Positions 14,752-58,365 of a stretch of DNA of 64,000 nucleotides are shown here, one piece after another; the first letter of the stretch is position 1; each line of letters begins with the position of its first letter. The position numbers and the translations under genes are program-made. Origin of the DNA: Parelaphostrongylus tenuis (Eukaryota; Nematoda; Chromadorea; Rhabditida; Metastrongylidae); assembly GCA_019055375.1 (NCBI GenBank), contig JAHQIW010007199.1, positions 310,001-374,000 of the forward strand, in the 5' to 3' direction. A model generated the notes under the pieces. It saw only the letters and a program-made list of their open reading frames with translations. It did not search any database and was not told the DNA's origin.

Positions 14752-15206
14752 GGCTTACGTACGTTTCGGTGATCTCGCTCACCTCATTAGAGTCACATAA
14801 CTCACGGATCACCTCTCATTGTAGATGGATCAGTCAAGACAGTCTGGAATACCACGTAAGGTTGCGGTTTCACTGATTTCAGTAGATCGCTTACGAGACT
14901 GTTACGGAGCATGTGACATTACCAATCAGTCGACTGTTTCTAAATCCTTTTCTCTCAGACTATATTGAATTCTTAAGCGAGATTTCAGACACAGTCGATT
15001 GGAAGGTATCGTTATGTGCTTCGTAACACCTTTGTAAGCCATTGACTGAAATTCAAGGAAGACCGCAACATCACGTGATATTTCACGTTGTCTTGACTGG
15101 TCCATCTACGAGCGTCCCAGCTATTAATAGGGATGATCCATAAAGCATATTCCTACGATGTGGCGGGCGAGACCGCCAAATGTATGTAGACCACTGGTAC
15201 ATAACC
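14752..15206. mobile_element. palindromic element with decayed hammerheads (P6)
   Basis: About 455 bp of inverted arms (CCAGTGGC on the left, CCACTGG on the right). On the - strand the left arm reads CTAATGA, a GGTG/CACC stem, GAAACGTACGTA. The right arm on the + strand has a GGCGG/CCGCC stem but a broken core. Same outward layout as P1/P2, but both ribozymes are probably dead. Confidence 0.55.
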
Positions 15207-15457
15207 TTAGAAAGGCCTAAAACATTCTATAAGACAAATTAAGTTTATGTTTTCTTCTTGTTACCTTTTTTACTCTATTAATTTCCTAGTATGCTGAGGA
15301 TGTATACATCGATTAATGGAACACTTCTAAAGAACGCCATGGCTCAAAAAAAGCACTTACGAAACGTCAGCAGCAAAAGAAATAATGAATAAATCTTTCA
15401 GTCGTCAAACGAATATCACATAATCAACAAAACAGTAAATTATTGCCATTGATATAG

Positions 15458-15552
15458 AGTGATGTGCAAGACTTTTGCGTCAGCTGGGACCAGAACCCAC
15501 ATCTCACCTTATCCGGGGACGTGTGCTCAAACCGTTGCGCTACTTCCGACGT
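15458..15552 (-). mobile_element. S3 tRNA-like SINE, single arm
   Basis: On the - strand: a GACGTC-like head, a B-box-like GGGTTCTGGTCCC and the conserved 3' end GACGCAAAAGTCTTGCACATC. A short family (about 95 bp) that elsewhere forms inverted pairs. Confidence 0.6.
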
Positions 15553-15806
15553 CTATTTCGTAAATTACTGATTGATCGAATGTCTAAGGTAATAAGAAAT
15601 CAGTATTGGGAATTGGGAATTATCAAGGTGATATCGCTTGAAATGGGATCTCATAGCTATACGAAAGGAAACCCTGCCGATCTCAGTTAAACTAACTATC
15701 GACGATTGCAGTTTGCTCAGAATGACACAACTTCTTTCTTTATTTCATGGTGAAGGATTCAAAAAGACGACATCGAAGTAGAATTACTGGCAACAATTTA
15801 TTGATA

Positions 15807-16290
15807 ATACCTTTATATTCGACTGTTTTTTCAAGCGCCCGCTCAAAATGAATACATCGTGGCAGCATATTATATGTATTTTTCACTGTATACGTGCCAT
15901 AACAGATTTCATGGAAGGCCTATATTATGCTGTCACGATGTATTAATTCTAGGCGAGGTTGCAAAAAAAAGCAGTCGAATATAAAGGTATTGTAATAAAG
16001 CTAACAGCCTTGAGCAATCGACTGCTGATCAGTGCAATGTCCGGTGCTCATGTCACCGGTCATGCACTGATATGTTATTCATGGGTGAAGTGAATTTTCA
16101 CTTTGCATGCAGTGTAACATGTTCGTCAACAATTCCTTCATATAAGAGGGTTCTTCTTGAAAGAGGTTGGCTTAGACGAAATGCGCAGTGCAACTGACGA
16201 GGCTGCGAGGCCGAAACACGTGTACAGTACTGTATAAGTGTCATATCAGACTTCATGAAAGGCTTAAAATATGCTCTGAGGACGAAATTA
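15807..16290. mobile_element. P1-type element: ~200 bp hairpin plus hammerhead arm
   Basis: 15807-16005 is a hairpin with complementary ends (ATACCTTTATATTCGACTG against its inverse). It is followed by a P1 right arm (CAATCGACTG... to AGGCTTAAAATATGCT) that carries a hammerhead at 16186-16232. Confidence 0.6.
16186..16232 (+). ncRNA. hammerhead ribozyme motif with complete core
   Basis: CTGACGA at 16194-16200, stem II GGC/GCC, GAAA at 16213-16216, self-complementary CACGTG at 16217-16222, cleavage predicted after the A of GTA at 16224. In stem I the outer four pairs (CAGT with ACTG) hold while the inner part is mismatched. Confidence 0.65.
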
Positions 16291-16328
16291 TGGATGTTTG
16301 TTGCAAACATTAACGAAGCTGCAGCCCT

Positions 16329-16598
16329 CATAGTTGATCAGTCCCTGAAATAGGTGCCATGCATTCGATTCAATTCGTGGCATCATTGGAGGTGACTGGA
16401 TGCATATCTGGCCTTTACAATGATTCAAAGTGGCCTGCCGATGTATCAAGTCAGTGGCTATCCTCCCAGACAGGTCTGGTACCAATTTTACCGGCCCCGG
16501 ATAATTGGAAGTCTTGGTAAAGCTTGATCAAGGGATCAAACCATCAGCCACGTGTGTGCCATAGGACGCCTTTAACCACTACGTCACCCGCGCCTCAC
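16329..16598 (-). mobile_element. S1 SINE
   Basis: Full-length but diverged - strand copy. The A-box region reads GTGACGTAGTGGTTAAAGG and the B box GGTTTGATCCC. Body blocks GGTACCAGACC and TGTAAAGGCCAG are intact. Confidence 0.7.
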
Positions 16599-16700
16599 AA
16601 CTATTACTACTGATCATGTCAGTCTTGATATTCACAGCGGTATCATATTATCATTACTACTACTATCATACACTATTACCGAGACTACTGACGTTATTCA

Positions 16701-16950: not shown

Positions 16951-17320
16951 GGCGCCTCATTATTGTCATTTTGTGGTTTATAGCAATATGCTGAAAAGTT
17001 TGAAAAAGCATACGAGAAGAGCAGATTGACGCGACGTTCATCTAGGATTCCATCGATCCGGAAAGGCATCACTCCTCGAGGAATTATCAAGCCAAACGGA
17101 TGCTTAGATCTCGATGAACGCTGACGAAGCAAACTTCCGTCGGATCGTCGAAGACTTCTTCCCAAAGAAATCGACGCAAAAGCGCCCAGTAAATCTAGTG
17201 CTGTTTCTGTAACTCAATTAGTAAAATATTTACAGAAGAAAAATCTTGATTTTTTCCATAAAAACTCTAAAATCATATAAATATCAGATGTGATTTCTGG
17301 CATATTCGATAATGTGGATT

Positions 17321-17470
17321 GCTGTGCAAAAACATTTGCGTCAGCCGGGATTCGAACCCAGATCTCACTCTTTCCGGAAGCGTGTGTTAACCGTTGTACC
17401 ACCGACGCTCGTTTTGCACAATGAATTCTGGGTTCGAATCCCGGCCGACGCACATGTTTTTGCACAGCGC
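17321..17470. mobile_element. S3 head-to-head palindrome
   Basis: Two S3 units in inverted order. The left unit on the - strand ends TGACGCAAATGTTTTTGCAC and the right unit on the + strand ends CGACGCACATGTTTTTGCAC. Each carries GGGTTCGAATCCCGGC, an excellent B box/T-arm. Only about 20 bases separate the units. Confidence 0.75.
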
Positions 17471-17909
17471 TCCACACTACTGGGTATACCATAACGTCAT
17501 ACCACCGCAAGTGGCAGTCAATTAAAAAGGCTTCTGGCATAACTTTCGCGCTCCACGGCGCCCACGTTTCCGCGCTCCAATCGACAATTGACGATAGAAA
17601 GGACTCGTCAATGCTTTGATTGTGATCTTCTTAGAGATTCCATCGATCTTCCCCCGCGGTTACTTTTAGCCGTGCCTTTACTGCACAGTATATTTTATGT
17701 AAAAATATTTTTAAAATGACGTGACTATCGATTTTTCCCGAAGAGATAGCTCTGCCCATTCAATTGGAGCTTCCCTGAGGATCGTACGTCTTCTTCGAAA
17801 TTGGCGGCTGACGTCTCGGCGAGTTCGCACCTCCTTCTGACTGCCGTTCTCTTAGGTGGTAGGACCTTCTCTTGCCCTGAGATGTTCGCGTCATTTTTCA
17901 TTTTACATA

Positions 17910-18285
17910 CCGACTGAATTCCTCGGGATATCAAGCGCTCTGCAGGAAGACCATCGACTCAAAATCAGAGACTCCGTTCTACACGCCAGGATATCGAAAG
18001 TAAGGTGAGCCGGACACGTGGTGCGCTTCAACGACAACCGATGGACGAGAGCCGTTACCGACTGGATTTCTTGAAATGTCAACACTCTACAGGAAGACCA
18101 CTGACCCGTTGGTCCGATTTCTTCACGAATAGCCTCGAGGAAAGATATGATGCTCAGCGAATCCTTGGAGCAAGCAGGACCCCCACTGGGCTGCTCTTGC
18201 ACGCGATAGGGAAAAATGGAAGTGTTGTGGGTGCTTGCTCGAGTCACTCGACGATCAGCGGGGCGACAGGTGATACAGGTGATGT
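17910..18285 (+). mobile_element. RTE LINE 3' fragment, rearranged
   Basis: Translated pieces GRPLTRWSDFFTNSLEERYD and LLHAIGKNGS..CSSHST match the C-terminal domain and 3' end of the LINE at 9.0 kb, followed by the ACAGGTGATACAGGTGAT tail. A partial duplication (17930-18050) sits upstream. No reverse transcriptase remains. Confidence 0.7.
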
Positions 18286-18567
18286 CGAAGTGGGAACCAG
18301 AGTCTTTCGTCGCCTATAGACTTTTAGAATCCTCAGGGGGAGTTGTAGTCCCATCAGCTTCTAAAGTTTTTTTTCTAATTGATTTTTTTCAAATAAGAAT
18401 GCACGGGAGCACGCGTAGGCTAAGGCTTATGCCCAAAAAATCGTCGAGCCCACAGCTCCCCAGTAGGGTCAGCGATTTTTTTGGGTTTCTGTTTGTAGTT
18501 AGTAGGGTTTTTGACGTCATATGACATGTTTAGAGCCTTTTTCAAGGTCTGGTAAGGCCCCTTTACA

Positions 18568-18612
18568 TCGCTAGGCGGGCTCGTTTCGCCTTTGCAGGCT
18601 CATCAATAGCAC
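18568..18612 (-). ncRNA. hammerhead-like motif, isolated
   Basis: On the - strand: GTGCTA, TTGATGA (core C changed to T), perfect stem II GCCT-GCAA-AGGC with a GNRA loop, GAAA, then an atypical stem III region and TAGCGA closing stem I by four pairs. The core substitution suggests little or no activity. Confidence 0.5.
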
Positions 18613-18749
18613 GGAGCTCATCGACCACAAATAACAAAAGGCTCGAAACATTATGTGATCATCAGATTATTATTGATTTTGAATGAGGTCTATAACAACT
18701 GTCGACTGAAGGAGTAAGGTTTTTTTCTATACTTACGTCTACATGCCAT

Positions 18750-19034
18750 GAGCGTGTATGACGTAGTGGTTATAGGTGCTCGTGCCGCACACGTGATCGA
18801 TGGTTCGATCCCGCGCTCGTGGGCTCACCTAGCTTTCCATCCCTTCGAAGCCAGTAAATTGGTATCAGACTCGTCTGCTAGGATAGCAGTCCCTACTTAA
18901 GACATCGAGAGGCCATCGCGAGTCACTGTAAAGGCCAGATATGCACTCAGCCACCTCTTCGGTGCTACGAATGGAATCGAATGCACGGCGCATCCGCCAA
19001 AGGATTGGTTAACGACGAGAGCTTTATCGTCTAT
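18750..19034 (+). mobile_element. S1 SINE
   Basis: Full-length. The A box is weakened (TGACGTAGTGG); the B box GGTTCGATCCC matches the tRNA consensus. The body carries the GAATGGAATCGAATGCA block shared with the 31.5 kb copy, a minor subfamily mark. Confidence 0.8.
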
Positions 19035-19232
19035 TTTTTTCTATTTTTGACTGAGAGCATCAGGAAATGTGTTTTTCAGTCTTCAAAATTCCATATATCA
19101 ATCTCTCCAAGTCCATCGATATTTTTTCCCTCATTTTCTTATTGTGTCTCTGCTGAATGGTATTCGGTCCTCGTTTCCTTATATTTTCTTATGCGAAATA
19201 TTCGATGATATTCTTGAATTAGATACTTATTG

Positions 19233-19455
19233 ATGTAGGATGGTGTGCAAAACTTTCGCGTCACGTGGGACTTAAACCTGCACCTCACTCTTTCCGGGAA
19301 TGCGTGCTCTATCCGTTACACTACTGACGCCAGTTGAAAGAGCGATGTGCAAAATGGGCATCAGCAGTGTAACGGAAAGAGCACGCATTCCCGAAAAGTG
19401 TGAGGTGCGGGTTCTAGTCCCGCCTGACGCGAAGGTTTTGCACATCATTCTACAT
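19233..19455. mobile_element. S3 head-to-head palindrome, long arms
   Basis: Each arm is a complete S3 unit of about 95 bp: a GACGC..ACTGGTGTAACGG-like head, a CTCTTTCCGGGAATGCG centre, a GGGTTCTAGTCCCGCC B box and a CGCGAAAGTTTTGCACATC tail. The arms are near-identical inverted copies around a short spacer with GAAAGAGCGATG. Confidence 0.75.
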
Positions 19456-19662
19456 CAATGGGTATATATTTGAAATATTATAACAGCGCTAGAAGCGGTT
19501 AAGTAAAAAGTATTTTGTTTGATTCTGGAGTCACTCAACAACGTTCTCATTCAATCGTTTCTGTCAAATCCCTAATTTGTATCTTTTGATCGTTTCTCTG
19601 GGACTTTCGTTGAATTTACTGAAGTATCTGTTCGTAACGAGTGTCGATAGCTTTGCTATTTC

Positions 19663-19664
19663 AG
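19663..19664 (+). promoter_or_regulatory. likely spliced-leader acceptor of cul-2
   Basis: TTTGCTATTTCAG ends 18 bases before the cul-2 ATG with no upstream exon needed. This is the usual picture of a nematode trans-splice site. It also supports the choice of start. A normal cis acceptor from a non-coding first exon would look the same. Confidence 0.55.
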
Positions 19665-19682
19665 AGAGAAGCAGCCTCTCTA

Positions 19683-30173
<10,491 letters not shown>

Positions 30174-33464: not shown

Positions 33465-33745
33465 AATATAATATGATAACATATTTTGAGCTTTTCATGA
33501 GGTCTTCATAAGAGAAAGGTATAATATTAGAATTTTAATAGCCAAGAGCAATCGACTGCGAAAAACTGCCCAACAGTTGGTCTTTTCACTTTACGGCAGT
33601 GTAAACTGTTCGTCGTTGATTCTCTTACAAGTGGAGGGTTTAGATCTTCCTTGTAAGGGATTGGCTGAAATGAGAAAAAAACCGTGCTATTGATGAGACT
33701 GGAAGGCCGAAACACGTGTCTTGCACTATATAAGTGCCATAACCC
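33462..33745. mobile_element. P1 element, right arm with hammerhead
   Basis: Between the two P5 copies. Outer part TTTTGAGCTTTTCATGAGGTCTT, middle AGAGCAATCGACTGCGAAAAAC, right arm with the ribozyme and the CTATATAAGTGCCATAA end. The left-arm ribozyme is missing. Confidence 0.6.
33684..33726 (+). ncRNA. hammerhead-like motif, one core change
   Basis: GTGCTA, TTGATGA (first core base C to T), short stem II, GAAA, self-complementary CACGTG, GTC cleavage site at 33720, then TTGCAC closing stem I by four outer pairs. Probably weak. Confidence 0.55.
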
Positions 33746-33985
33746 TTTGGGGACCATACGGTACGTTTCGTACCGTGCCGCGCGACGTCAAATCTCACTC
33801 AGCTACTACAATGGAGGCGTCGCGCCCCGTGAGAACGGCAGCGCATGTCTTGGGAAGACAGACGCAGACAGCACGATATTCTCACACAGAGACGCAGATG
33901 CCGCCTCTTGTGAATGCCGCGCAAGCGACGTCGCGAAGTCGACTGCTATTATCGCTGGTCGTTGTAGGGTCAAAAGACCTCAAAA
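33739..33985. mobile_element. P5 GC-rich short TIR element, copy 2
   Basis: Starts AACCCTTTGGGGACCATACG and ends TAGGGTCAAAAGACC. Inside it repeats copy 1 (CGCGCGACGTCAAATCTCAC, CGCAGATGCCGCC). The ORFs across it are a by-product of GC content. Confidence 0.6.
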
Positions 33986-34280: not shown

Positions 34281-34299
34281 TTCTCAGCAACAGTAAGTG

Positions 34300-34795: not shown

Positions 34796-34940
34796 TCTAA
34801 ACAATCATTTGACTCAAATCATTCGCATTGGAGTTTGGGAACAGATTTTCTTTCATTTTCGGCTTCAGAAATCAATCATATTTACCTGGATGGTTTAGCG
34901 TGGAGCACGAGGTTGTTAATGAAAGTCTAGTACTTTTCTG

Positions 34941-40494: not shown

Positions 40495-41150
40495 TTGCGA
40501 TCGACTATGTTTAGACCTTGCTTAAAATTTTGATGAATTCTGGCAGAATATTTGAAGCCTTTTAAAAGCTGTGTGTATGACATCTTTAGGGGTATACATA
40601 CACTTCGTCGTTCTTACACGCCTCATCAGTTCCACGTGCTTCACAGCTCACCTCTGCTTCGGTTAGAAATCGGCACCGAAGAAGTATCACTCTAGTCAAA
40701 TGGAAGGATCACTTAAAAGTACGTTCTTCAGAGTGTTAGATTGCCGATTGCTTACGGCTGGTATAGAGCATATAACAATACCTTCTTATTGACTACCTTG
40801 AGACCTCGCTTAAGAATTTAATAAGTGTGATAGAGTATTATTCACTCAGTTAATATCTGTCGGGTTAAATCGAATTTTTGAGCGAGCTCTTAAGATAATC
40901 GATTGAAAAGTATTGTTATATGTTTTATAACAGCCGTAAGCTATCGACAATCAATCAGTCTGAAGGACGCGAAATCAAGTGATTGTTTCACCTGACCTGA
41001 AGTGATGCTTCTTCGGCGGCGATTGCTAGTAATTGTGGGGTTGAGCCGTGGAACATGTGGTACTGATGAAGCGGGCGAGAACGCCGAGATGTGCGTATAG
41101 CGCTGGAGATGCCATACCAACCCTCTCGAAAGGCTTCAAACATCCTACCA
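40495..41150. mobile_element. P1 palindromes in tandem, degenerate hammerheads
   Basis: Two partly overlapping foldbacks with P1 features (TAGACCTTGCTTAAAATTTTG, GATTGCTTACGGCTGG). A - strand motif near 40600-40645 has CTGATGA and a CGT/ACG stem but GAAG for GAAA. A + strand motif at 41057-41103 has CTGATGA but GAGA. Both are probably inactive. Confidence 0.55.
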
Positions 41151-42352: not shown

Positions 42353-42361
42353 ATTTGAGTG

Positions 42362-44215: not shown

Positions 44216-44563
44216 TATAGATAAACTATTATCATTGTTATTATATATTGATATATTACTATTATTATATAGTGAAGCTATCAGCAACGAAGCTTCAACG
44301 GATTCGATGTGCTCAGCCCGAAACCTTGTGTGTTTGAACCTTCTTTCATCTTTTCAGCATTTATGTGGCCTTGTTCTCGATATAACTATTGGAGATTATT
44401 GGCAGGCGGATTTGATCCACTTCGTTCTTGTATACATCTAGTAAAGTAAATTCCAATCAATGTAAATGTAGCCATAAAACAATAATCTGAATAAACAGAT
44501 GTCAGAGGATACATCTATCGATCGCCGACCATTGCTTTTTTTGGCTCGATGTAGCCTTGTTGA

Positions 44564-44809: not shown

Positions 44810-45340
44810 ATCTCAAATCCCTGTCACGGAGACGAGCCCACTGGTGGGGGTCATGGGCGACTCACGCCCGGGAAATGGGTAGCGGACTCGTATGACGATT
44901 TCGAACATATAATGTGAGACTTATATGACACATACGACTATAATACCCACAGATCATCGACCCGGCTCACCACCCAGGGGTTTCATCTTTCCGAGGCATC
45001 GCGATAGCTCCCCGTGGCCCCTCGTTTCCTGATCGAGGTTTACAAACACTTTAAGTAAGCGGAATACTTCTAGTGTATTGTTCATCGGTTCTCGCTCTTC
45101 GTCATCAGGCATTTAACCCATGTTGACATATCATTCATGTTACGAAATTGTTACTAATCGAGCTATTACAGTTCATTGATCTATTGACTATTACGCATCA
45201 TGTTTATTGATCCGTCAGTTGTATTGGTTGATGGGTATTTGTATTATATGTAATTATTCTTTATTCTAGTTGTTTTTATTCTTACTATATTCATTGATAA
45301 ACCGCGCGGCAGACTAAGTGACTAGCTACATTACATCATA
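44810..45340. other. GC-richer segment then AT-rich flank, unassigned
   Basis: 44815-45030 is unusually GC-rich for this window (GGAGACGAGCCCACTGGTGG, ACTCACGCCCGGGAAATGGG) and may be another repeat family. It has no ORF and no tRNA boxes. Confidence 0.35.
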
Positions 45341-45451
45341 TCTTTCATTTCGAGTGTTTTCCTAAGACCACAGCCCAAATTTCAATGTGCCTGATAATTA
45401 TTTATCGAGCCACGCATGTCAATGGTCTGTCAAACAGGGCTGACTTATAGA

Positions 45452-45494
45452 GCCCGATACACTTGTTCCGATCTTGCGATCTCGTCAATCGGGC
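45452..45494 (-). ncRNA. hammerhead motif, left arm, core mutated
   Basis: On the - strand: GCCCGA/TCGGGC make a perfect six-pair stem I, and GATC-GCAA-GATC a perfect stem II. TTGACGA has one core change, GGAAC replaces GAAAC, and stem III is disturbed (CAAGTG). Likely inactive. Confidence 0.7.
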
Positions 45495-45753
45495 AGTTAC
45501 CCTTTCTCGTCTTTTGCCAATCCTGTGTGGGTGCTCCAGTCCCCAGACTAAAAGTTAGCGACGACGAACGTTTTACACTCTATGTCTAGATGTGCTGTGT
45601 TAATTATACTAGCCAAGAACAATCGAGTGTACAACGCTCTGTCTGCGGTGGTAGTTTTACAGGACACAGAGTGTAAAACGTTCGTCTTCGTTAATTCTTA
45701 GTGTGGGGACTGGAGCACCCACGCAGGATTGACAAAGACGAGAAAGGGTAACT

Positions 45754-45796
45754 GCCCGACTGACGAGATCGCAAGATCGAAACACGTGTATCGGGC
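45754..45796 (+). ncRNA. complete hammerhead ribozyme, best copy in window
   Basis: All elements are present: stem I GCCCGA (45754-45759) with TCGGGC (45791-45796); CTGACGA (45760-45766); stem II GATC-GCAA-GATC (45767-45778) with a GNRA loop; GAAA (45779-45782); self-complementary CACGTG as stem III (45783-45788); cleavage expected after A45790 of the GTA triplet. The stem III is too short for a stable monomer loop, so a dimeric fold is expected, as described for short-stem-III type I hammerheads. Intergenic, about 1.4 kb before mig-22, same strand. Confidence 0.85.
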
Positions 45797-46423
45797 TCTT
45801 GAGTTAGCCCTCTTTGATAGACCACTGACATGCGTGGCTCAATAAATAATTATCAGGCATATCTACATTACAGTTGCACTGCCCCACAGACACGAGCATT
45901 TTAGCACTCGAATTACTACTAAATTTTGGCCAAAAATAGCCATGAACTGTGAATCGCGAAAATCTTTCCTTTTTTTTAATGCAGTACACATTCCCTACTT
46001 CAGATTAACAATGTGTCCTTCCCTTTTTAGAAGAAAGTGAGAGCGCGTGATAAGATTAATGTATAATGGAGAAAGCGATGCACGTAAAATACTGGTTAAC
46101 ATCCATTTTTTTTCATTTTTTACTACACTCTAAATAAAATTTGTGTAGGGAATGAATTTTTATTCATGCTGTCAGAAAAAAACGAAAAAATTGGCAATTT
46201 TTTTGCAATGAACTTGTTTTCTTGCACAGCTTATTTCCGCAAACACTCCAGTGTGTTGTACCAAATGTATCGCAGTATTGTTGTAATCTGACGTTCCAGT
46301 CCTCCCAACTTTTCTCCTTTACAAGAGAACTTTGTCGTTGTGCTTTGATTGCTATAAACGCTCTGTATATTTTGTTTTGTTTAACGTTGACGCTAGTTAG
46401 ACGACTCTCTCTCCAGAAAAGAG

Positions 46424-47208: not shown

Positions 47209-47217
47209 TCCTGCGCG

Positions 47218-50200
47218 ATGATGGCCGGCTCTCGAACGTGCATTCCGCTGTTTGGCGGTCTAATGCTGGGAGTTCTGCTGGCTTTGCTGTTCTTCTCGAA
47301 CGAAGAAGATACACCCTCCTTAGAACATGTGATATGTCCTCTTCGAAGTGTTTCACGAAAGAAGTAAGTGTATCTGCCTTTACAAATTTCTTACCACAGC
47401 TTTTCTCTGAAGAAAGCATCACCTCTTCGTTGCTTGTATATTCCAAGCTAATCGTACCTATCTTGTAGATACGTTGATGTGAGTGAACACTGGCAAGTTC
47501 ACCTCGACAATATGCCTTCGCCGCCACCAAATCAGGACGCGACGCCAAAGGTCAGTCTGGCCTTGGTTTTTTTTCAGAACTATATAGTTCTTTTTCTTCC
47601 AGTCGTTTTCTAATTGAAGTGGAAGTTGTGTTGTTCAAGATAATGTTCCCTCGTAGGGACTACTCGTGTTATTTTCTTATTCAACTGTTTTTCAAGACCT
47701 CGCTTCAAAATTCTATACAACCTGACAGTTTATTTTAGGCCTTCCGTAAGGTCTTATGTGGCACTTTTAGTGCTAGATGTGCGTTTCGACTTTTTCATGT
47801 TAAGTCTCATCAATATCACTTGCCTTTTGGTTCAACTGAGCTCCCAGCTATAAGGGAAGCGGCGTCGAACAATTTACATTGCACGTAAAGTGTTAGTTCA
47901 CTTGAAATTGCAGTGATTCACAGTCGATTGTTCGTGGTTCATGATCTTGTCACTCGACGTACAGTGTAAATTGTTTGACACCGCTTCCCTTTTACCTGGA
48001 GCTCTGTCGAACCGAAAGGCACGTGCTACTGATGAGGTTTGACTTGGAAAGCCGAAACGTATCTTTTGTACTAGAGGTACTATATTGGACCTTATGAAAG
48101 CTCAGAATATGCTGTCGGGATGTATTCGCGTTATTTGTTTTCGCTTATTTGCGGGAAAAAGCAAAGGTTATTAACGGCTAAGTCGTGAGAAACCACATAA
48201 AAAGAAACACGCTGGGATAGCCAGAATTTTATGAGTGTAAATAAACAGTTAGCCTTCTTTTTTTCCTGATTAGATTACTTTACTTCTATTCCAATAGCAA
48301 AAGAGTACGTCATTGATCAATCTCTTTTAGGACTATGACATGTGCTTGACTCTATCAAACATCATAAACGTGTTCTTTAAATGCAGCTTTTGCCTATTGA
48401 ATAACCTATAAGGCCCTATCGTTGTAGGAGATCAGTATACTTTATATTCAAAGAAAAAAGTCTGGTCCCAGTTTGTCGACCTCGAAAAGATCGCAAGTGT
48501 TTAGTCAAGTCGTGATGCCATGGTCGATTCAGCAACTATATGTACTTCAGGACAGTAGCGTTTAGGCTACATGCTGCTAGTTCATTTGTATTATTGAGAA
48601 ATTGAGTTCAAATCGTTGTTAAACTAGACTGAATCGTGATCTTATTTTTGCACAGCTGTGAAATGAAGCTGACCACGTGTGGCGCATCGATGAGGTGCTC
48701 TGTGACACACAAGTGGTTGATCAATCGAAGGTCAATGGATCAATCCCTCTCTCAAGATTCTTCAAGGCTTTCATTCTTGCGGGGTCGGTTAATCGATGCT
48801 ACACTTGTCTGGGTGAATATCACCACTTACTTGATGCTTCGGTAGGCCATCGCAAATCTTTGCAAAGGCCAGATATGAATCAGTCACCTCAAGCGATGCT
48901 AGATGAGAACGAATGCTTGGAAGATTCTTCAGGAACTGATCAGCGCCTTGAACTTTGTCTGTATCTTAATGAAGTGAATATGAAAAGATCGTTACAGGTG
49001 GTTCGTGCCCGGTTTGCTGCCACTGAGCTGGGCATCCGAGAGCGGCTTATGGTCGGAGTGCTGGCTGAATCGTCTTTAGCAGTGGCGATGAATGCCTCAC
49101 TTGGACGACATGTCCCGAGAATCCATGTGTTTGTCGATGCAAGCCGTATCAATACCGACTTAGCACATCTCACTAATCTTAGCCCTTACAAGTATGTTTT
49201 TCTATGAATGTATATGTTTCCTCCAAGTATCCCCGTTCTATGCAATTTCAGGAGTTAATTGAGTAAGCTTTCAGGCCTAATGGTCAAAAGTCGCACATTT
49301 TTGTACTTGGATTAATATTCAACATGGTAAGGAAGTCATTTAATTGCTCGTGTTTATTATTTTTGTCTTTAACTTGATCCAGGATTTAATATATGATTTC
49401 ATTTTAAGTGAGGATATATCAGAATTGGTGAGTTAATGTAGTGAAACAGAGCAATGTGTCGTTAGTTTGTTGTCGTTATTTGTGATTGCGCTCTTTTCAT
49501 AGTTCGTCTGTGCTTCGTTATCGATTTGATTCATTTCTATTTCAGACATTTCATGAGAATTTTGACTGGTTTCTACTAGTACGCGATTCCACCTACATCA
49601 ATCCATTCGAATTGAATCGTTTGATAAATAGCGTAAGTGATATGACGGACATTTCATTTGTCGTAATCATTTCTCTCTTATATTCAAAGAAGTCACATTT
49701 TTTCACTTGGAGTAAAAATTGAGAGTTTGGTTTTTTATCTTTGAATTGAGTGGTTTATTCATATATCACACTTAAGTAAACTAATTTACCAAAAGTCTTC
49801 TGTGTTTTGTTACAGGTGAACTGGAATCAGCCAGTTCTCATAGGTCAGCCTGCGGATGACGGTAGTGGCAGGTGTATGTTAGAAGCTGGAGTGATTCTTA
49901 GCAATCCAGCAATGCAGAAACTGATTCAGTAAGTTATAGCCTAAAGCCTCAGATTTATCTTACTGAAATATCCGAACCAAATGGAACATCGTACAATAAA
50001 TTTTGTCTTTCAACCCAGCGGTCGTAAATACGATATGTCGAGCTTTTTCCTTATTTAGGTGGATCTGACAGGGGCGGGCATATCTTGTAGACCTCAGTCC
50101 AACACTTAAGATTTGAATACGCAAAAAGTGGAAAGGCCTTTGTCTGTCTTTTCTTTATGCGTTGACGGAACTCTCTTGTATCTGTTTATCAATGATAATT

Positions 50201-53200
50201 TATTGAAACACTAATGAATTTTTAGGCACCGTCTCGCTTGCAACCTACTTGTTAGTGGCTCCGATTCAGATCACTTAGCATTTGAGAAATGTCTACAGTT
50301 GGCGACGAACTTGTCTTGTATCAATGAGTATCAGGTCAGGGTTTGGAATTCACAGTATCATATGTACACATCCCTTCCAACTGTTTATTTTGATTTGAGA
50401 ATTTTTTGTTTTTTTTTTTCAAAGACTTTTACGTGACTTGTCGTTCAACGCACAAGTTGTCCGTAGCGTGGCGCGGAGCCATTTTCTGCACCTAAAATTT
50501 ACGAGCAATCGTTTTATTGAGGAGTTCATTCATTTGAGCTCTATTACTAAGTCGACATCTGAAATGATGCCTTTTCAACTAGAACGATTGCGTCAAAATC
50601 TGCATTACTGGCGCCCATTTTCGTGTAGGTTAGAGAACGCGCTCCCGGATTGAGTGAGGTGCGGGTTCCAGTCCCTCCTGACGCGAAAGTTTTGCACATC
50701 ACTCTATAACACGGGGTATGTGTGTATAACATCATACCACCGCAAAAAAGCGGTCAGATAAAACAACTTCATTTAATCTATAAAACCAGTATCTGTCAGC
50801 GTGACTGGGTTCAATGTTGAAACCGACTACCCGGGCCAGGCCGTTGACGGCTGGCTGCTGACAGATGCGCTGTAACGTAGAAAGAGTGTTGTGCAAAATG
50901 GGCGTCAGTAGTGTAACGGATAGAGCAGGCGCTCCCGGAAAGAGTGAGGTGCTGGTTCTAGTCCCTTCCGACGCGAAAGTTTTGCACATCCTTCTACTTT
51001 TTTTTTACACGACCCGTTATCACAATTTATTGTGCTGCGGATTCCACACTTCTTCCATTCAAATCGTCTCCTGCATTCGTTCTCCACAGAGGTGTTAAAG
51101 CATCTCACGTGTCATTTTGAACGCTTCTCAAGGATTTCATCTTCTTTATGATGTCGTAGATTTTTTCCAGTCGTTGCATTTCTCTCCCAATCTTGCAGGT
51201 ATTTGAGCTAGGCGTCCTTAGAGCGTTCGTTGATTGATTGCAAAAGTGCTGAGGGTATCAAATTAGTGCCTAGTATACCGCCTTGCTTCTGATACACTGC
51301 ATCAGTGACCGCTGCGTTAGCCCATCCACCTCTAAGATTGCACTGAGAATCCTGTCGACCAGCATTCTATCACAATCATAAAGAAGAGAAAATGTTCAAG
51401 CAGTAGCCGAAGCAGTAGTGAGATGTTGGAGGCTTTTGTGAAGGACGATTTTGAAAAAATGAATGCAAGTGCTGAAACTTGCGCAATAAATTATGATGGA
51501 TCGGGTAAATGTGTAAATAAGTAAACAAACAAATAAGTAATAAATATAGTCGTTAGGGAGGACTACACAAAGTTGACGATCATTAATGAATCTGACAATG
51601 TATCTCTTTTTTGAGCTTTTTATGAGGTCTTTTATGGGCACTTATACAGTGCGATGCACGTGTTTCGGCCTTGCAGCCTCGTTGGTTTCACAGCCCTTTG
51701 GCCTGAGGCAATCCCCGATGTAAGTGGGCTTTTCCCCCCAAAGGAATTGCTTCAAACGAAAGGCAGTGTGCAACCGAAGAGGCTGCAAAGCCCAAACTAG
51801 TGTATTGCACTGTATAAGTGCCACTAAAGGACCTCATGAGAGCTAAAAAAAAAAAGAAATACATTGTCAGATAATGTTTTGAGCGAGGTAATAATGGATC
51901 GTTAGAATGCCGATTCTATATTTAGAGTCGAACATACAATGTCTGGCATGTTTACGGTGCACAGACAGCTCATGATGCCATAGACAAATGGCGTGAAGAC
52001 GAATCTTTCAATAAATCTATTGCTGTTACGAAGCTGTTGTCGGATGCAGATGCTTTAGCTTTGCACGACCATTTCGTAAGCGTTGAGTTAGCCAGGTATG
52101 CCAATGGTTGCAATGAAGACGTTGTTAGTCTCAATCATTATGCAACATCTGCTAGAGAAACGTCGTTTCTACAGGATTGATGCTGAAATCGCTGCAATGG
52201 AGACAGAGTTGGCAGAACTCCAAACGAATGCAGAGGAAGACCCGACATGGCCTGCAGCCGTTCACGCGTACAGCAAACCACCTAATCGTTACCAAGTGGG
52301 GTGGACGCCTTCTCTTATCAAACGTAGTGAATTCAGTGTTCCATGAGGAAATAGGACTTGAGAATTGTATCTTTCAGGTGCCTACGTGGGAATTCTTCAC
52401 AATGAAGGATATTTTCCGTAGTGAGCCCAATCAAAATGTGCGTCCACTTGAAGGGAAAGATCGGGATGACATTTTGGAGGTAAGTGGAACATTTAGCTTT
52501 GGACACCTTCATTTGCACAACACTGATTATCAAACAGAACATGTGCGTTAGTTTCTGCTTCAAATATCTACATTGGAACAGAATCGTTGGAAATGTGTTA
52601 CGCTATGAAAGGTCTACTTTTCTGAGGACCGACTTCCTCTTAATATTAGTGTTGATCAATAAGTGACCTCTCCCTGAGTAGAGTCGAATACTAGACGACA
52701 TTTGTCACTTGCTGACTAAAGTTTCGACCTATTACTTCCTCTCAAGAGCTCGAGAAGGGCAAATTAATGCGCCGTCCACACAGTGAAATACGTTCATGGC
52801 TTCAGCAGAAAGATTGATATCTTGATTTTGACCCTCTATAAAAGAAGTGTTGCGTTTGCGATTGGAAATTAAAATTTCAGTTCTTCTCTGCTGCACTTGC
52901 GAAAGTTTTTCATTGAGAAGGGTGCGTATTCAATTGACGTTTCCATACTAAGACGAAGGCGATATTGGCTGAGACATTAGCCATTAAGAAGTGAATATTG
53001 ATAGACAATCCTAAGTCTCTTTAAGAGGAAAAGAGTAACTTGAAATTCTGGCACTTTTGAATGCGATCTACCTTTCTAAGGAAACCTAATAATCTAATCG
53101 TTTCTTACCTAAGTATTTTAGGTGGTTGCTACAGCAAAGCAATATGTGGAATCTGAAGAGCCAGACTTGGAGTTTTTGCAAGTCAGGAATGGGTATAGGT

Positions 53201-55708
53201 AAGATCGTACTACGGTGTCATCTGAGTATTTCAATAACGCATCTTCGCAAATCATTTGAATTCGCACAAATCTTCATATCGCTTCCAACTGGCTGTAGCA
53301 ATCTGCCAGTTGGCCATGGTCTTCCTTAGAGTCTCGAATGGCGGTTGCTATGTCCTAGCGTTTTATCAAGTCATCACGACTTACCAGTCAGTGAATGTGT
53401 TGTTGACAGCATGGATGTGATTCTTAGCACCAGCTTATTCTTGACTACACTTTTTCTTCATTGCTCATGAAATTGATGAACTTCTCACCGAAATGAGATT
53501 CTGACTGCGTGAGCATCCCCGCTGTTCAAACCAGTTGTATACCTTGGACAGTTAGCTATCATAAAGAGATTAGCATTCGGAAGTATTGTGCATGGTAACG
53601 GGATAGTCTGTTTTATTTTTCGTAATATAATAAGGTTCGAAATGGATATTCATCAAGTTCGCTAAGTAAAATAACCTGTTGAGGTTGTTTGATCCACAGC
53701 GTGGCATGGACTACATGATTGATCTTGTCTATAAGGATAGTACAACACAGGCAACTATTGAACGCCGAGTTCATCTCTGTCGTATGATTGCCGGAACACA
53801 GCTTTTGAATCAGGTAGGGGCTATAACTAGTACGGCCATTTGTTCTAAACCAGTTCAAGTTATTCCTTTAAGTTCCAAGGGCTTTATTTACGCATACTTC
53901 ATTGTTCATTCAAAATCATTGGTATGAAATTTGGTGAACACAGACTGAAAGGATTTAAGAAATCCTAAATGTCGCTAACTATTCCTAATCTTTGTTCGGT
54001 AAATTGTGAGAAGTAGTTTTTCAGGTCCCCTATGTTAAAGAAGACACAGATATGACAATTGTTGTTCCCGTAAGCGACGAGTCAGAAGTACTACCTGCTC
54101 GGCGTCTCCTTGCAAGGCATGCCCGACTGTGCACCGCCCCAGCAGAAGAGACAAGAAAGGTTGGTATTCATTACACGTTTTTCTATTCTTACATAAAGCG
54201 TAATTCCAATTCGAAGAGTTATTCAAGACAAGAGTGGTAGTCGCACTTTTACCTGGGATTGATCCACGTTCTGCAACGAACATTGCAAACGATTTAGAAG
54301 AACTAAAAAGAAGGTACGTTGACGATATTTAGAGCCCAAGTGGCGATGATTGTTGTGTATCGACTTTTTGTCTGCTTTCGTATCAGTTTGAGTTTTAGAT
54401 GCAAACGATCTGGCTTAGAGTCGGACTTGTTGCAACTACAAGATACGTCGGGTGACAAGAGTGATCGTAAGAGCTCAGCTGGAGACGTGGCCGGTGGCAG
54501 TGCCGCACTCGACGAAGCCATTGATCGCTACGGTTCTGGATCAATCTTCTTGTTGTTGTCACCGTATGCTGACGTACAGAAAGAGTTCCTTGATCGCGCT
54601 CGTATCAATACTATCAAGCATTACCAGGTTTATTACATTTCCTTTCGTATTTTCCTGCATGTAAATATGCTTGTATTGGATGTGTGCGCTTTTGTTATAT
54701 TGTAAATAATTTTCTTTATCGTGATTCAGGTGTTCTTTCCTATTCCATTTGTGGAGTATCATCCAACAATTTCGGGAATGGACATTGAGGAGCATGAGGT
54801 GTGTTATATTGGAATTGTTATGAACATTGTGTAAGTTTCATTGCCCGAGTTGTTTGTTGTGTTTGATTTCTCGATGTTTCAGGCACCAATCGACCAAAAA
54901 GAAGCGCGAGATGCAGCCCTTGCGAGGTTGCGCGACTCTTCCCCACCTAAACGAAAACGGCCGTTGATTGTTCAAAAGGTTTGCTGTACTTCGATATTTT
55001 GTTAAAAATTGTTGAGCTATTCGTCTAAATTATAAGGTTAGCTGTATATGACTTGTTTTTCACACTCTTGAGACCCACTCTCTACATCTCTTCGTTCGTA
55101 CATCGTCCATTTTCCTCATTCCATCATTGGCTCATACATATATTGCGTTTCCCTGTACAGGGAGGTGAAAACAGAATATTAAGCGGAGGTCTGAATCTTT
55201 GTGCCGTTTTATTTAGAAATTTTCCACTTTGAGGCTGATTGAACTCAGCCCTAGAGCGTAGACATAGCGTAGTTGCGCGTAAAGGTTCATAGTCGACGAG
55301 CTAATCAGACTGTTTTTCCTCCGACCTCCATACATATAGCATGAAGAACATGTCATAGTACATGAGGATTCGGGATGTTCTCTGTATGATGGGAAATGGT
55401 TTATTTTTTTAATGTCTTTTTTGAGATCATCAACATGTGCCATAGCTCTTATCGCTTCACTATAACTATGCTTTCTTCAGGATCATGGTCGTTTTGACTC
55501 GCTTGACTTCTCATGCATGGCCGTTTACGGATCAGATTATGTTGTTATGCGACCTAAACTGTTTGGAAAGCGACTGGACCTTATAACTGCCTTTCTGAAC
55601 CAGGGCGAGATTCATATTCTTCGTGCTGTGGAGCCAACACTTAGGCTAAGGTTGTCTAGCTATCATTTTCTATATCATAACGTTCTCCACTGGTTATTTT
55701 TTGCATGA
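47218..55708 (+). CDS. mig-22: chondroitin polymerizing factor (ChPF), Golgi type II membrane protein
   Basis: Nineteen exons join in phase to about 759 aa (human CHPF 775): 47218-47363, 47469-47550, 48998-49191, 49275-49326, 49383-49427, 49546-49632, 49816-49928, 50226-50334, 51926-52095, 52175-52295, 52378-52479, 53122-53198, 53684-53813, 54025-54159, 54219-54313, 54399-54627, 54730-54798, 54883-54978, 55481-55708. It partners chondroitin synthase in elongating chondroitin chains. Residues 8-26 are a signal anchor. TELGIRERLMVGVL and FDWFLLVRDSTY match the GT31-like half. RLFDPQRGMDY, VFFPIPFVEYHP, DHGRFDS...YGSDYVV and LRAVEPTL match the GT7-like half. DxD motifs are missing from both (RDSTY at 186-190, SPYADV at 607-612), as in ChPF. 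The last exon is read through to 55708; a further 3' exon is possible. Introns 2 and 8 hold hammerhead palindromes. Confidence 0.92.
47768..47820 (-). ncRNA. hammerhead motif, left arm
   Basis: On the - strand: AGTGATA with TAGCACT (six of seven pairs), TTGATGA (first core base changed), stem II GACTT/AAGTC, GAAA, CGCACATC. Antisense to mig-22. Confidence 0.6.
48023..48075 (+). ncRNA. hammerhead motif, right arm, stem III deleted
   Basis: GTGCTA, CTGATGA, stem II GGTTT/AAAGCC and GAAA are intact, but stem III is shortened to CGTATC and stem I closes late (GTACTAG). Sense orientation in the mig-22 pre-mRNA. Confidence 0.6.
48672..48962 (+). mobile_element. S1 SINE in mig-22 intron 2
   Basis: Diverged full-length copy. 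The A box is recognisable (GTGGCGCATCGATGAGG), the B box replaced (GGTCAATGGATCAATCC). Ends about 35 bases before exon 3. Confidence 0.65.
50600..50705 (+). mobile_element. S3 SINE unit in mig-22 intron 8
   Basis: GGTTCCAGTCCCTCCTGACGC (B box) plus GAAAGTTTTGCACATCACTC. Head damaged. Tandem with the next copy, same orientation. Confidence 0.65.
50882..50997 (+). mobile_element. S3 SINE unit in mig-22 intron 8
   Basis: Complete single unit: TGTGCAAAATGGGCGTCAG start, AGTGTAACGGATAGAGC (A-box region), GGTTCTAGTCCCTTCCGACGC, GAAAGTTTTGCACATCC. It shows the unit from which the palindromic pairs are built. Confidence 0.7.
51001..51330 (-). mobile_element. S2 SINE in mig-22 intron 8
   Basis: On the - strand ends AACGGGTCGTGTAAAAAAAA, directly against the preceding S3. 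The head keeps GCAGCGGTCACTGATGC. Confidence 0.6.
51651..51690 (-). ncRNA. decayed hammerhead, left arm
   Basis: On the - strand: CCAACGA for CTGANGA, stem II GGC/GCC, GAAA, CACGTG, then CATCGCAC. The core is broken on one side. Confidence 0.45.
51768..51808 (+). ncRNA. decayed hammerhead, right arm
   Basis: Stem I GTGCAA/TTGCAC is perfect, stem II GGCT-GCAA-AGCC perfect, but CCGAAGA and CAAA replace the core blocks. Sense to mig-22, and probably dead. Confidence 0.5.
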
Positions 55709-55967
55709 AGCAGTAGCAGCAAGTTCGTAAATGTTTTGAGTCAGTTATAAGTCGTCAGTGTTATGTGTTAAGGGTCACGATGTCGATAAATTTATTATAA
55801 TTTACTGTAGTTTGCCTTGACACATTTGTGACTGACCTAAAACTCCACAGATAAGAGCGATCTGTGATGGAAAATAGTACTTAGTAGAGTAACTTTGGTA
55901 ATTTTTGGTAATTTCATTGCTTTAATGACCTGTAGTAATTTTTATCTGTTCTTATTTCCCAAAAATC

Positions 55968-55973
55968 AATAAA
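55968..55973 (+). terminator. candidate mig-22 polyadenylation signal
   Basis: AATAAA 259 bases after the assigned stop. If a further 3' exon at about 56301 is used, this signal would be intronic. Confidence 0.4.
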
Positions 55974-56023
55974 AGGTGTTGAAATCCGGGGAGATGACAA
56001 TATTACTGTTATATCAGGTATTT

Positions 56024-56300
56024 CCGCGCTTGTGACGCAGTGGTTAGAAGTGCCCCGCGGCGTAGACGTAGAAATCAATTCCGCGTTCATGGCTCACCAA
56101 GTCCTTCATCCATCCGGGGTCGGTAGATTGGTACCAGGCTTATCTGGGAAGATAGTAGTGCTGACTTGTCAAATTGATAGGTCCGCACGAGTCACTACAT
56201 ATGCATGCATTCAATCACATCTAACGATTTTCAGTGTCGTCGAATGTATGGTGATCTTTCAGTAATAGATTTTCGTCGAGTGTCTTCTTCTTTTTGATAG
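56024..56300 (+). mobile_element. S1 SINE
   Basis: Head GTGACGCAGTGGTTAGAAGTG with a good A box; B box lost. GGGGTCGGTAGATTGGTACC and a short body follow. It lies immediately downstream of mig-22. Confidence 0.7.
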
Positions 56301-57689
56301 GTGTTTAATGACTTAATCCAATCCCATCATGCTGTAGTTAGGGTGCTTACAGATATCATCAAAAGACATGTGATTCCGATATGGTAGAGGAGGACTACTC
56401 TCGATGTATGGCAAGCAAGCGTGAAAATATAGCAGCAAAGGATCAACTTGCTCGGCTCCTTTTTCATGAAGGATAGAATTTGCTCCAATTTGTTCTCACT
56501 TGTGTATGTTTGAAGTGGCCATAAGTCTACTTTGCTTTATTATTCTACCGAACAACAGCCGAGTGATATTTTTTAATTTTTAACACCACTTTTGTTTTAT
56601 GTGGAGCTACTTATTCTGCTCATTCAGCGTTCATGGGTCGTCCGTCGAATCGTTGATTTCATTCTTACATTTTTTTGTGAAAACGGGTAGCCATGTTTTC
56701 TGAGCCTTGGCCTAAGTGTGCTTATTTGTATAAGTGATATACCTTGTAATATGTTTCTAATTCGAATTTATTGTTTTATTTTTTTCTTTAAATATATATA
56801 TATGTATATACATATATATGCATATATATGTATATATATGCGGTTTTATATTTTTTGAGAAATCGATTATGTTCTCGAAACCGTCTGTTCATGTGATAAT
56901 GCTACCTAAAAAATTGCGATCATTCTTTTCTTCACCATCATTTATATCAAACCCCTAATTTCATATTATGTCATCGTATGAATGGCCCTGACTACACGGG
57001 AATATTTTGTCTACTTATTAAGCTTTTCCTACGTCCCTTGTTTTTCCTCCGACCCATCTGTGATAATCGCTTCTTGCCCATGTGCATGGTGTGTCTTTAT
57101 ATAGTCATGATTTTACCCAGTTCTCAATCTTCTCTACATTGTTTGGTGTACTTGCCCATTTTCTACAAAATCACTTATTTCGTGCCTGTTGATTTTACTT
57201 GAGCTTTTATCCATAATTGTTTTAGAGTCATTCTTTTTTGTGTTCTCGTATTGATGGTTCACTGTGATCGCATATTATTAGACTGTACAGATATCTCGTT
57301 ATCGAAGTGAAGAGCTTCTTATGGTTTTGTGAAGCATAATAGTTATTTTCCACATGGTAGGCATCGACCAAGTAATAAATTTGAATAGAATCTTAGAACT
57401 TCCAGCATTAGTAAATCTAGTCTTTTTTCGCTCTTTCGACTTTCTATGAACACCTTTTCACAAGGAAAACCAGTTTAAGTACGGTGAGAAGCCATTCACA
57501 GACTGTAGCCGAGTAAAAAGTACGCGCCGGGTAAGCGTAATCTTATTGTCGCTTTCAAGCCACTAGGAATCATCTAGGAACAATTACGTTAATGAAATTG
57601 CTGTTTTCTGGGCTAATGAATGAGTTTCTAAGATCCAATATATTAATTTTGTCCAACGAAAAAGTCATCTAAAGACGCCTACACGCCGT
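56301..57689. other. intergenic, AT-rich
   Basis: Contains an interrupted TATA/CATATA microsatellite at about 56792-56840. A possible exon (56301-56386, ending IKRHVIPIW and stop) was considered for mig-22 but does not fit its reading phase. Nothing else supported. Confidence 0.45.
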
Positions 57690-57925
57690 TCCGAAGGGGT
57701 CAACGCGGTACGATAATGGCTCTCGTTTACATTAAGAGAGCGATCTCTCCAACTGATGCAGGGTAAAACTTGTTCGGCGTTGATGTTCCATAATAGGGGG
57801 TGAGCAGTCGAATGGCATGACCTACCTACTGATGAGGCTTGCTAGAAAGCCGAAACGTACGTCTAGTACTAGCAGTTTGAGAACAGACCTCATGAAAAGC
57901 TTGAAACATTCTATCAAATTCAAAC
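57690..57925. mobile_element. P1 element, right arm
   Basis: GTGAGCAGTCGAATGGCATG, the ribozyme, then TGAGAACAGACCTCATGAAAAGCTTGAAACATTC, the usual P1 end. The left arm is unclear. Confidence 0.6.
57825..57870 (+). ncRNA. hammerhead ribozyme motif with intact core, weak stem I
   Basis: CTGATGA (57829-57835), stem II GGCTT/AAGCC, GAAA (57852-57855), perfect self-complementary CGTACG, GTC with cleavage after C57863. Stem I now pairs for only three bases (CTA/TAG). Confidence 0.7.
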
Positions 57926-58004
57926 GTTCCTGTCCCTACCGAAAAGCTGCATCAGTAGCTTGCTGAACTGGCAAAATTGATAGATTCAAAAAGTCCTTCT
58001 TATT

Positions 58005-58365
58005 CGACTATTTTTTGAGACTTCACTCAAAGTTCAACGTAGAGGCGCCATGACAGCCCTTATAAAGGGCTTAGATGCTGTAAGGATGTCTGCAAGTTCT
58101 AAGCGGGGTCTTAAAAAGCCGTCGAAATGTAGAGGTATAATTCAATTTACCATCATGAGCGATTGACTGTTGATCAGTGCAATGTAAGGTGATCTTATCA
58201 CCTTACATGCAGTGTAACGTGCTTGACGTCTTTTTATATGTAGGGAATTTGCTGAACCGAGAGACACGTGCTACTGATGAGGCGTGCTAGAATAAGCCGA
58301 GACGTACGTCTACCACTAAAGGTACTATAGCAGACCTCTCAAAGGTCTAAAACATGCGAGATCGT
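58005..58365. mobile_element. P1 element with small hairpin and right-arm hammerhead
   Basis: A short hairpin at about 58005-58140, then GAGCGATTGACTGTTGATCAG, an inverted AAGGTGATCTTATCACCTT, and the ribozyme arm ending CAGACCTCTCAAAGGTC. Parallel in layout to 15807-16290. Confidence 0.6.
58268..58316 (+). ncRNA. hammerhead motif, one core change
   Basis: GTGCTA/TACCAC (five of six pairs), CTGATGA, stem II GGC/GCC, GAGA for GAAA, CGTACG, GTC with cleavage site C58310. Confidence 0.6.

Follow-up and report, generated by a model that had tools for sequence, protein, structure and literature searches.

We analyzed a 64,000-nucleotide (nt) stretch of the genome of the nematode Parelaphostrongylus tenuis (contig JAHQIW010007199.1, positions 310,001 to 374,000; hereafter the window, whose own numbering is used throughout) and identified 15 loci of a family of short elements, six of which carry two type I hammerhead ribozymes facing outward from each other. 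We conclude with high confidence that these elements are nonautonomous, noncoding retrozyme-like retroelements inserted by the machinery of Penelope-like elements (PLEs), namely, a reverse transcriptase (RT) combined with a GIY-YIG endonuclease. They are most simply classed as nonautonomous retrozyme-like passengers of Penelope-type retrotransposition. Retrotransposition fits three features of the insertions: a tail present on one side only, target site duplications of variable length, and inner joints that differ from one insertion to the next.

Several searches bear on the identity of the ribozyme. A motif scan for CTGANGA, a stem II, GAA, a self-complementary stem III, and a stem I, with at most one core mismatch, detected 7 sites in the window, whereas 20 Markov-1 random sequences averaged 0.3; at a stricter threshold, the numbers were 4 and 0.0. 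A covariance model built from the 17 window arms implied by the loci listed in an initial annotation of this DNA recovered all 17, as expected of a training set, along with an arm outside that set, 18551-18617 on the minus strand (26.6 bits, E = 1.7e-4), whose flanks belong to the same element. The hammerhead-like motifs reported at those loci are thus confirmed in 17 arms, and one overlooked arm (18551-18617) is added to them. The proposed check with Infernal and Rfam gave a divided result. The scan of the whole window returned no hammerhead at the gathering threshold, nor any at E ≤ 10, and three arms scanned singly each had RF00163 (Hammerhead_1) as the top match, with 27.7 bits (E = 1.9e-5), 26.6 bits (E = 4.8e-5), and 21.4 bits (E = 2.6e-3), none of which attains the gathering score of 34. 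The single-arm matches were presumably missed by the filters of the whole-window scan. That Hammerhead_1 is the best match of all three agrees with the earlier description of a type I ribozyme with a short self-complementary stem III. Several window arms are decayed, and the arm at 15.1 kb has a broken core. Exact hammerhead patterns were searched for in viral and prokaryote contigs and found in neither (0 and 0).

When stems I, II, and III were positioned manually on the alignment of the 17 window arms, 82.8% of cells were paired, compared with 73.6% after shuffling and 23 to 44% with the partner slid, and 25 cells were changed on both sides against 8.4 in shuffles. Stem I strands match their own partners better than partners redistributed at random among the copies (permutation p = 0.0036), most strongly in the 45-kb element. 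Among 45 distinct rows of copies from outside the window, selected by the structure-aware covariance model, a selection that leans toward structure, 85.1% of cells are paired versus 79.7% shuffled and 23 to 37% slid, with 47 double-change cells against 16.9. In these copies, covariation also supports the outer part of stem I past a bulge, where one pair occurs as CG 17, UG 11, and UA 10 times. Covariation in stems I and II, the absence of which had been named beforehand as refuting the proposal, is present both in the window and in the outside copies. A chance motif or a conserved DNA site would account for the failure of any Rfam match to attain the gathering score, but we regard this explanation as extremely improbable in light of the random-sequence control (0.3 versus 7 sites), the best match of the three single arms to Hammerhead_1, the covariation in copies outside the window, and the finding that 29 of the 30 loci examined in a young subfamily (see below) retain an intact core, a number biased upward by the intact-core query.

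The elements of the window and their hammerhead arms are as follows, with strands given for single arms and with arms detected by the covariance model unless other evidence is named:

45336..45862: best-preserved element, head-to-head, tail left; 10-bp duplication CTACATTACA at 45326-45335 and 45863-45872
45749..45811, plus strand: hammerhead whose core and stems are intact, with cleavage predicted after 45790; motif scan and covariance model, RF00163 at 45754-45796, 27.7 bits
45437..45499, minus strand: left-arm hammerhead of the 45-kb element, two core changes
47675..48125: element, tail left; 11-bp duplication with one mismatch, 47664-47674 and 48126-48136
47755..47824, minus strand: hammerhead arm
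48018..48086, plus strand: hammerhead arm
20560..21054: element with approximate outer ends, tail left; unit profile and tail score
20640..20712, minus strand: hammerhead arm
20952..21020, plus strand: hammerhead arm; also RF00163, 26.6 bits
40485..41152: longest uninterrupted pair, tail left; both arms seem to start within the preceding unit
40574..40640, minus strand: hammerhead arm
41052..41118, plus strand: hammerhead arm
51591..51905: short-armed element with approximate outer end, tail right; weakest tail score, 22.2 (P = 0.013)
51634..51696, minus strand: hammerhead arm with decayed core
51763..51825, plus strand: hammerhead arm with decayed core
14364..15234: element whose left tail (14364-14409) is apparently split off by a nested repeat at about 14416-14688
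14735..14801, minus strand: hammerhead arm with CTAATGA core; motif scan and covariance model
15144..15207, plus strand: hammerhead arm with broken core; 31.9 bits
15790..16281: element with approximate ends; short tailed left arm without ribozyme, right arm longer than one unit
16183..16245, plus strand: hammerhead arm; motif scan and covariance model
18513..18712: element overlooked earlier, tail right; 12-bp duplication with one mismatch, 18501-18512 and 18713-18724
18551..18617, minus strand: hammerhead arm outside the training set; E = 1.7e-4
8281..8672: element with ribozyme in the left arm only, tail right; 13-bp exact duplication, 8268-8280 and 8673-8685
8331..8393, minus strand: hammerhead arm
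33475..33754: element with ribozyme in the right arm and a short, weakly supported left arm (E = 0.55); unit profile
33679..33741, plus strand: hammerhead arm
57764..57918, plus strand: single 5'-truncated untailed arm, no left partner in the profile search
57818..57884, plus strand: hammerhead arm; motif scan and covariance model, RF00163 at 21.4 bits
57980..58361: element with approximate ends; short tailed left arm (by eye), right arm slightly longer than one unit
58263..58331, plus strand: hammerhead arm
25608..25769: small element without ribozyme core (the arms begin 3' of the cleavage site), tail left; 13-bp exact duplication, 25595-25607 and 25770-25782
59069..59234: small element without ribozyme, tail right; 14-bp exact duplication, 59055-59068 and 59235-59248
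32160-32383: single arm, no ribozyme by the covariance model

The arrangement described in the initial annotation, with the left ribozyme on the minus strand and the right one on the plus strand, holds in the six loci with two ribozymes (14.8/15.1, 20.6/20.9, 40.6/41.0, 45.4/45.7, 47.7/48.0, and 51.6/51.7 kb). It fails for the motifs at 57.8 and 58.3 kb, which are both on the plus strand, the left partner of the latter being a short arm without a ribozyme. The spacing, given there as about 80 to 370 bases, measures 89 to 434 from core to core.

The 15 loci were delineated by means of a unit profile made from seven window copies, self-BLAST, and reading. Thirteen of them read as head-to-head pairs, with the 5' parts central and the 3' parts outward; the other two (57.8 kb and 32160-32383) are single arms. 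In most loci, the profile or self-BLAST shows the partner arm clearly; the partner arms at 8, 18, 33, and 58 kb are short and were recognized by reading, tail score, or, at 33 kb, a weak match. The arms are 5'-truncated copies of a unit of about 275 to 360 nt (two window units measure about 275 and 359 nt; G+C is 0.41 to 0.45 in these and two arms), and the truncation points vary along the unit from locus to locus. The end of the unit continues into its start, indicating that the unit is tandem- or circle-like. A tail of about 45 to 50 nt past the common 3' end is present on exactly one arm in all 12 scorable loci, a set that leaves out the 33-kb locus, the 57.8-kb locus being one untailed arm. 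These tails were first recognized by eye and then scored, leaving one locus out, against the other tails. In all 11 directly scorable loci, the tailed arm scored 22.2 to 42.9 (P ≤ 0.013) and its untailed partner 14.1 to 18.7, with the random 95% and 99% points at 19.5 and 25.6, respectively. The twelfth, at 14 kb, has its tail outside the apparent nested repeat (score 29.6, P = 0.005). Eight loci have the tailed arm on the left and four have it on the right. A scan of 30 of the 59 window open reading frames (ORFs) of at least 95 amino acids (aa) detected one RVT_1 fragment, from another element, and no GIY-YIG domain; at about 160 to 670 bp, the hammerhead elements are too short to hold an ORF for RT and GIY-YIG domains.

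Six of the window loci have direct repeats at their ends: 14, 13, 13, and 10 bp exact and 12 and 11 bp with one mismatch each. In an open comparison of two random flanks, the 14-, 13-, and 13-bp repeats were equalled in 0 of 285 trials, the 10-bp repeat in 2.8%, the 12-bp repeat in 6.3%, and the 11-bp repeat in 24%, so that the last, from the 47-kb element, is by itself not rare. With the ends fixed, each of the six has a P of ≤0.0014 in 5,000 random end pairs, the ends having been taken partly from these very repeats. The trinucleotide ATT is present on the plus strand of 5 of the 6 duplications (P = 0.005; P = 0.036 for either strand). Seven other window loci that were tried yielded no convincing duplication.

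These scars bear on the description of the elements in the initial annotation as MITE-like palindromes (MITE, miniature inverted-repeat transposable element). Mutator/Foldback-type DNA transposons have long inverted repeats, which is a point of likeness to the elements here. An origin from such a transposon, with an incidental hammerhead-like motif, would also be in keeping with duplications near 10 bp and with the Foldback family reported in root-knot nematodes in the available part of PMC3169594. Yet neither equal terminal inverted repeats nor a fixed duplication length is found: the ends are unequal in all 12 scorable window loci, the duplication length at the six window loci varies between 10 and 14 bp, and no two of the distinct insertions compared have the same inner joint. 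The stems, moreover, covary as a ribozyme. We therefore consider a DNA transposon very improbable and the MITE-like label inapplicable.

Copies elsewhere in the 481.5-Mb assembly containing the window were also compared. All match counts are lower bounds, with 40 of 610, 40 of 1,639, and 150 of 1,723 candidates scored for the 20.9-kb arm, the 45.7-kb arm, and the GIY-YIG domain, respectively. The 20.9-kb arm has at least 43 matches; in 28 loci fetched with it (its own and one overlapping locus excluded), the covariance model detected 53 arms at E ≤ 0.01, of which 46 with E below 1e-6 were aligned and 7 left out, giving the 45 distinct rows used above. The 45.7-kb arm has at least 44 matches, and the best 40, one of them the window itself, are 93 to 96% identical. 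In 30 loci of this young subfamily, the unit is 319 nt long and is also found joined in tandem. Nineteen of the loci are head-to-head and none is tail-to-tail; one of the 19 is the 45-kb element of the window, and two others (L036 and L037) have the joint and flanks in common. Counting these two once, we found 18 distinct inner joints in 18 insertions. The 3' ends lie mostly at unit positions of about 70 to 76 or 114 to 121. With end classes set wide (62 to 90 for short and 108 to 140 for tailed ends), 14 of the 19 pairs combine one short and one tailed end, with no tail/tail and no short/short pair. Duplications scoring ≥9 are present in 10 of 18 pairs (L036 left out), compared with 0.3% of 306 swapped pairs. 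Of the 30 loci, 29 contain one or more hammerheads with an intact core. As separate observations on the stretches fetched with either arm, L014 and L028 contain more than two hammerhead arms, L055 and L060 have arms exceeding one unit, and L014 has units of two different subfamilies close together.

The 53 aligned arms of the young loci, which include a few older copies nearby, also indicate what was copied. As many as 47 of them span the ribozyme cleavage junction, two of them twice, which implies that the templates were either uncleaved or religated at the junction. Three window joints had suggested, by eye, that 5' ends lie at the cleavage site; we rejected this because the young 5' ends are uniform over the unit (Kolmogorov-Smirnov p = 0.61) and only 1 of the 53 arms ends within 5 nt of the site (1.7 expected).

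The same data speak to two ways in which a palindrome might arise from RNA by other means. If the mobile RNA were the whole hairpin, as in a palindromic short interspersed element (SINE) with the short arm as its 5' end and the tail as its 3' end and with RT jumps across the hairpin causing the inner deletions, a short end, a tailed end, and a duplication would likewise be predicted, and some private variants that the two arms have in common in the loci at 25, 45, and 51 kb (partly by eye) would follow. However, no joint is common to two distinct young insertions, the 5' ends are evenly spread along the unit, a head-to-head joint is missing from 11 of the 30 loci, and a hairpin RNA is not needed if a PLE cuts and extends both strands (PMC11167929); we judge this explanation quite improbable. 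A second possibility, unlikely but the strongest of the alternatives considered, is that insertion is one-sided and the palindrome forms afterward, when the cDNA folds back and primes its own copying; self-priming is discussed for Penelope in the accessible part of PMC3846280. It is favored by the greater mean similarity between arms of one locus (0.77) than between same-subfamily copies located elsewhere (0.71). Self-copying should produce a shared outer end, yet one arm is untailed in all 12 scorable loci, and the closest relative of an older window arm is its own partner in only 5 of 12 cases, so that we rejected the partner as the general closest relative.

Insertion by PLE machinery has a candidate source in the same genome. 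The Pfam GIY-YIG domain has at least 150 matches, all above the cutoff, in frames of up to 902 aa, and both of the two open frames tested combine RVT_1 with GIY-YIG. The sequence CCGAAACGTCAGC occurs in 13 of 22 PLE stretches (L061 to L082); in those read, it forms part of CTCTGAAGA ... GAAACGTC, about 300 nt past the GIY-YIG domain, which we read, by eye, as the minimal PLE hammerhead. One PLE, L077, for which both ends were examined, has the same anatomy as the noncoding elements: inverted 274-bp repeats at 200-473 and 1851-2124 (99.3% identical), about 43 extra nt on the right arm only, and a 12-bp duplication, TATGTTTAGTGG, starting at 191 and 2168, the first copy of which extends 3 bases into the arm. 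The short and long ends of L077 lie about 63 and 106 nt from the predicted cleavage site; the corresponding distances in the noncoding unit are about 71 and 119 nt.

This anatomy is familiar from known PLEs. According to the portion of PMC3846280 available, a typical Penelope insert is completed by an adjacent inverted pseudo-long terminal repeat (pLTR), head-to-head being the commonest inverted arrangement, with an optional 31-bp tail on one inverted pLTR and, in an example, a 9-bp duplication. Purified PLE protein cuts and extends both target strands, reverse transcription starts at two observed internal sites, and the interval between them constitutes the tail; the Anolis PLE favors ATT targets, and hammerhead cleavage is unnecessary for insertion in vitro (PMC11167929). 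As far as these sources extend, GIY-YIG PLEs (Penelope of Adineta vaga and Drosophila and Poseidon of Anolis) share with the elements head-to-head inverted repeats with an optional one-sided tail, short target duplications, partial tandems, 5'-truncated copies, and a hammerhead near the insertion end (PMC3846280, PMC11167929). The elements differ from them in lacking an ORF, in having a longer tail (about 45 to 50 versus about 30 to 40 nt), and in having a two-part stem I rather than the minimal hammerhead form reported for PLEs. With metazoan non-LTR (long terminal repeat) retrozymes, to judge from the available parts of PMC7229834 and PMC7761336, they share nonautonomy, a unit of a few hundred bases with G+C below 50%, a type I hammerhead, tandem joining, and duplications longer than 4 bp; those retrozymes are direct tandems, whereas the elements are often inverted pairs, and inverted pairs or tails are not mentioned in the same parts. 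Inverted hammerhead pairs, which the initial annotation held to be unusual for hammerhead elements, are thus what would be expected of PLE-type insertion, inverted pLTRs with an optional one-sided tail being typical of endonuclease-bearing Penelope in the accessible text of PMC3846280.

On the basis of these precedents, we propose the following course of events. Transcripts would consist of units of about 275 to 360 nt that can be linked head to tail. Each unit contains a single type I hammerhead, which most likely trims or circularizes multimeric transcripts ahead of insertion, by analogy with other retrozymes. As in the published in vitro PLE reaction, the endonuclease would then cleave an AT-rich target on both strands. 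Each of the two 3' ends would serve as a primer for reverse transcription, which would begin within the RNA at two neighboring sites, in this case about 70 and 118 nt 3' of the ribozyme cleavage site. The two arms of a pair end internally at unrelated points of the unit, and the pair may accordingly be pictured as two cDNAs joined at their truncated ends. The hammerheads face outward because of the two-sided geometry of insertion, and no new switch, as had been envisaged for competing sense and antisense arms, is called for.

Several observations weigh against this retrozyme-like reading or parts of it. By the count of pairs changed on both sides, the covariation measure most resistant to relatedness of the copies, the window has only 8 against 5.1 (17 of 500 shuffles attain 8), and the outside copies have 11 against 8.8 (85 of 500), which is not convincing. 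In 6 of the 17 arms, the strands of stem I pair no better with each other than they do on average when swapped with those of other subfamilies, and RNAalifold yields no structure on the window alignment of 17 arms. In the young subfamily, the 11 loci noted above lack a head-to-head joint within 60 nt, 5 of 19 pairs have one end outside both classes, and 8 of 18 pairs lack a duplication scoring ≥9. The low fraction of older arms closest to their own partners (5 of 12) also belongs here. Finally, the hammerhead-like motif of the PLEs of this genome differs from that of the elements and is shorter (by eye), and the likeness of PLE 3' ends to the element tail has P values of 0.05 to 0.37 among the PLEs compared, giving no sequence tie to a particular PLE; tail homology to these PLEs was rejected as not significant. 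A tail derived from a long interspersed element (LINE) was likewise rejected, since the RT fragment at 9547-10212 ends quite differently (by eye).

The window contains further repeats and frames. Palindromes holding tRNA-like sequences lie at 19214-19474, 17310-17479, 37034-37663, and 43873-44237; the one at 17 kb has a 10-bp exact candidate duplication (17295/17532; 2.8% by chance), and these palindromes are possibly tRNA-derived elements that were also inserted two-sidedly. A separate family of about 800 bp with terminal inverted repeats has three copies (27049-27912, 32385-33184, and 34930-35778), and an interspersed repeat of about 300 bp is found at 1853-2155, 10409-10710, 14416-14688, 16333-16593, 18750-19042, and 19973-20267. 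Its copy at 14.4 kb, apparently inside the tail of a hammerhead element, may be usable for dating that element. A LINE-type RT fragment spans 9020-10212 on the minus strand (RVT_1 in 9547-10212), followed by short tandem units; the stretch after it is repeated at 36489-36964 and 17961-18283. A direct repeat (33291-33433/33778-33946, spacing about 490 bp) flanks the 33.7-kb hammerhead element, and an inverted repeat of about 215 bp (60014-60227/61774-61988), with 1.5 kb between its arms, is a possible DNA transposon. Frames resembling chondroitin N-acetylgalactosaminyltransferase (CHGN, two frames; 52156-54705, plus strand) and cullin (26671-27012, plus strand) are probably host exons.

As the agents that move animal retrozymes, PLEs have been called a "strong candidate" in PMC7229834 and "likely candidates" in PMC7761336, a case argued, in the parts of these reports available, from common features and co-occurrence rather than from direct evidence. 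Among the matches listed in a search of the open-access literature (titles and starts of abstracts), none described retrozymes whose hammerheads form inverted pairs with a PLE tail; priority is not certain. What is novel here is evidence from insertion scars for a link that had until now only been suggested: the PLE insertion signature is found in elements without ORFs, in a genome rich in GIY-YIG PLEs, one of which has the same anatomy. Inverted hammerhead pairs thereby become explicable without a special switch, and the presence of the signature in the scars makes the relationship between retrozymes and PLEs testable. We tentatively suggest, as a plausible but by no means settled generalization, that Penelope-like RTs move animal retrozymes by reverse transcribing ribozyme RNA, in circular or multimeric form, on both target strands from two internal start sites. 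If so, the internal start specific to PLEs would enable them to copy circular RNA, which lacks a 3' end, and one-tailed mirror pairs would provide a genomic footprint by which retrozyme insertions could be recognized in any genome.

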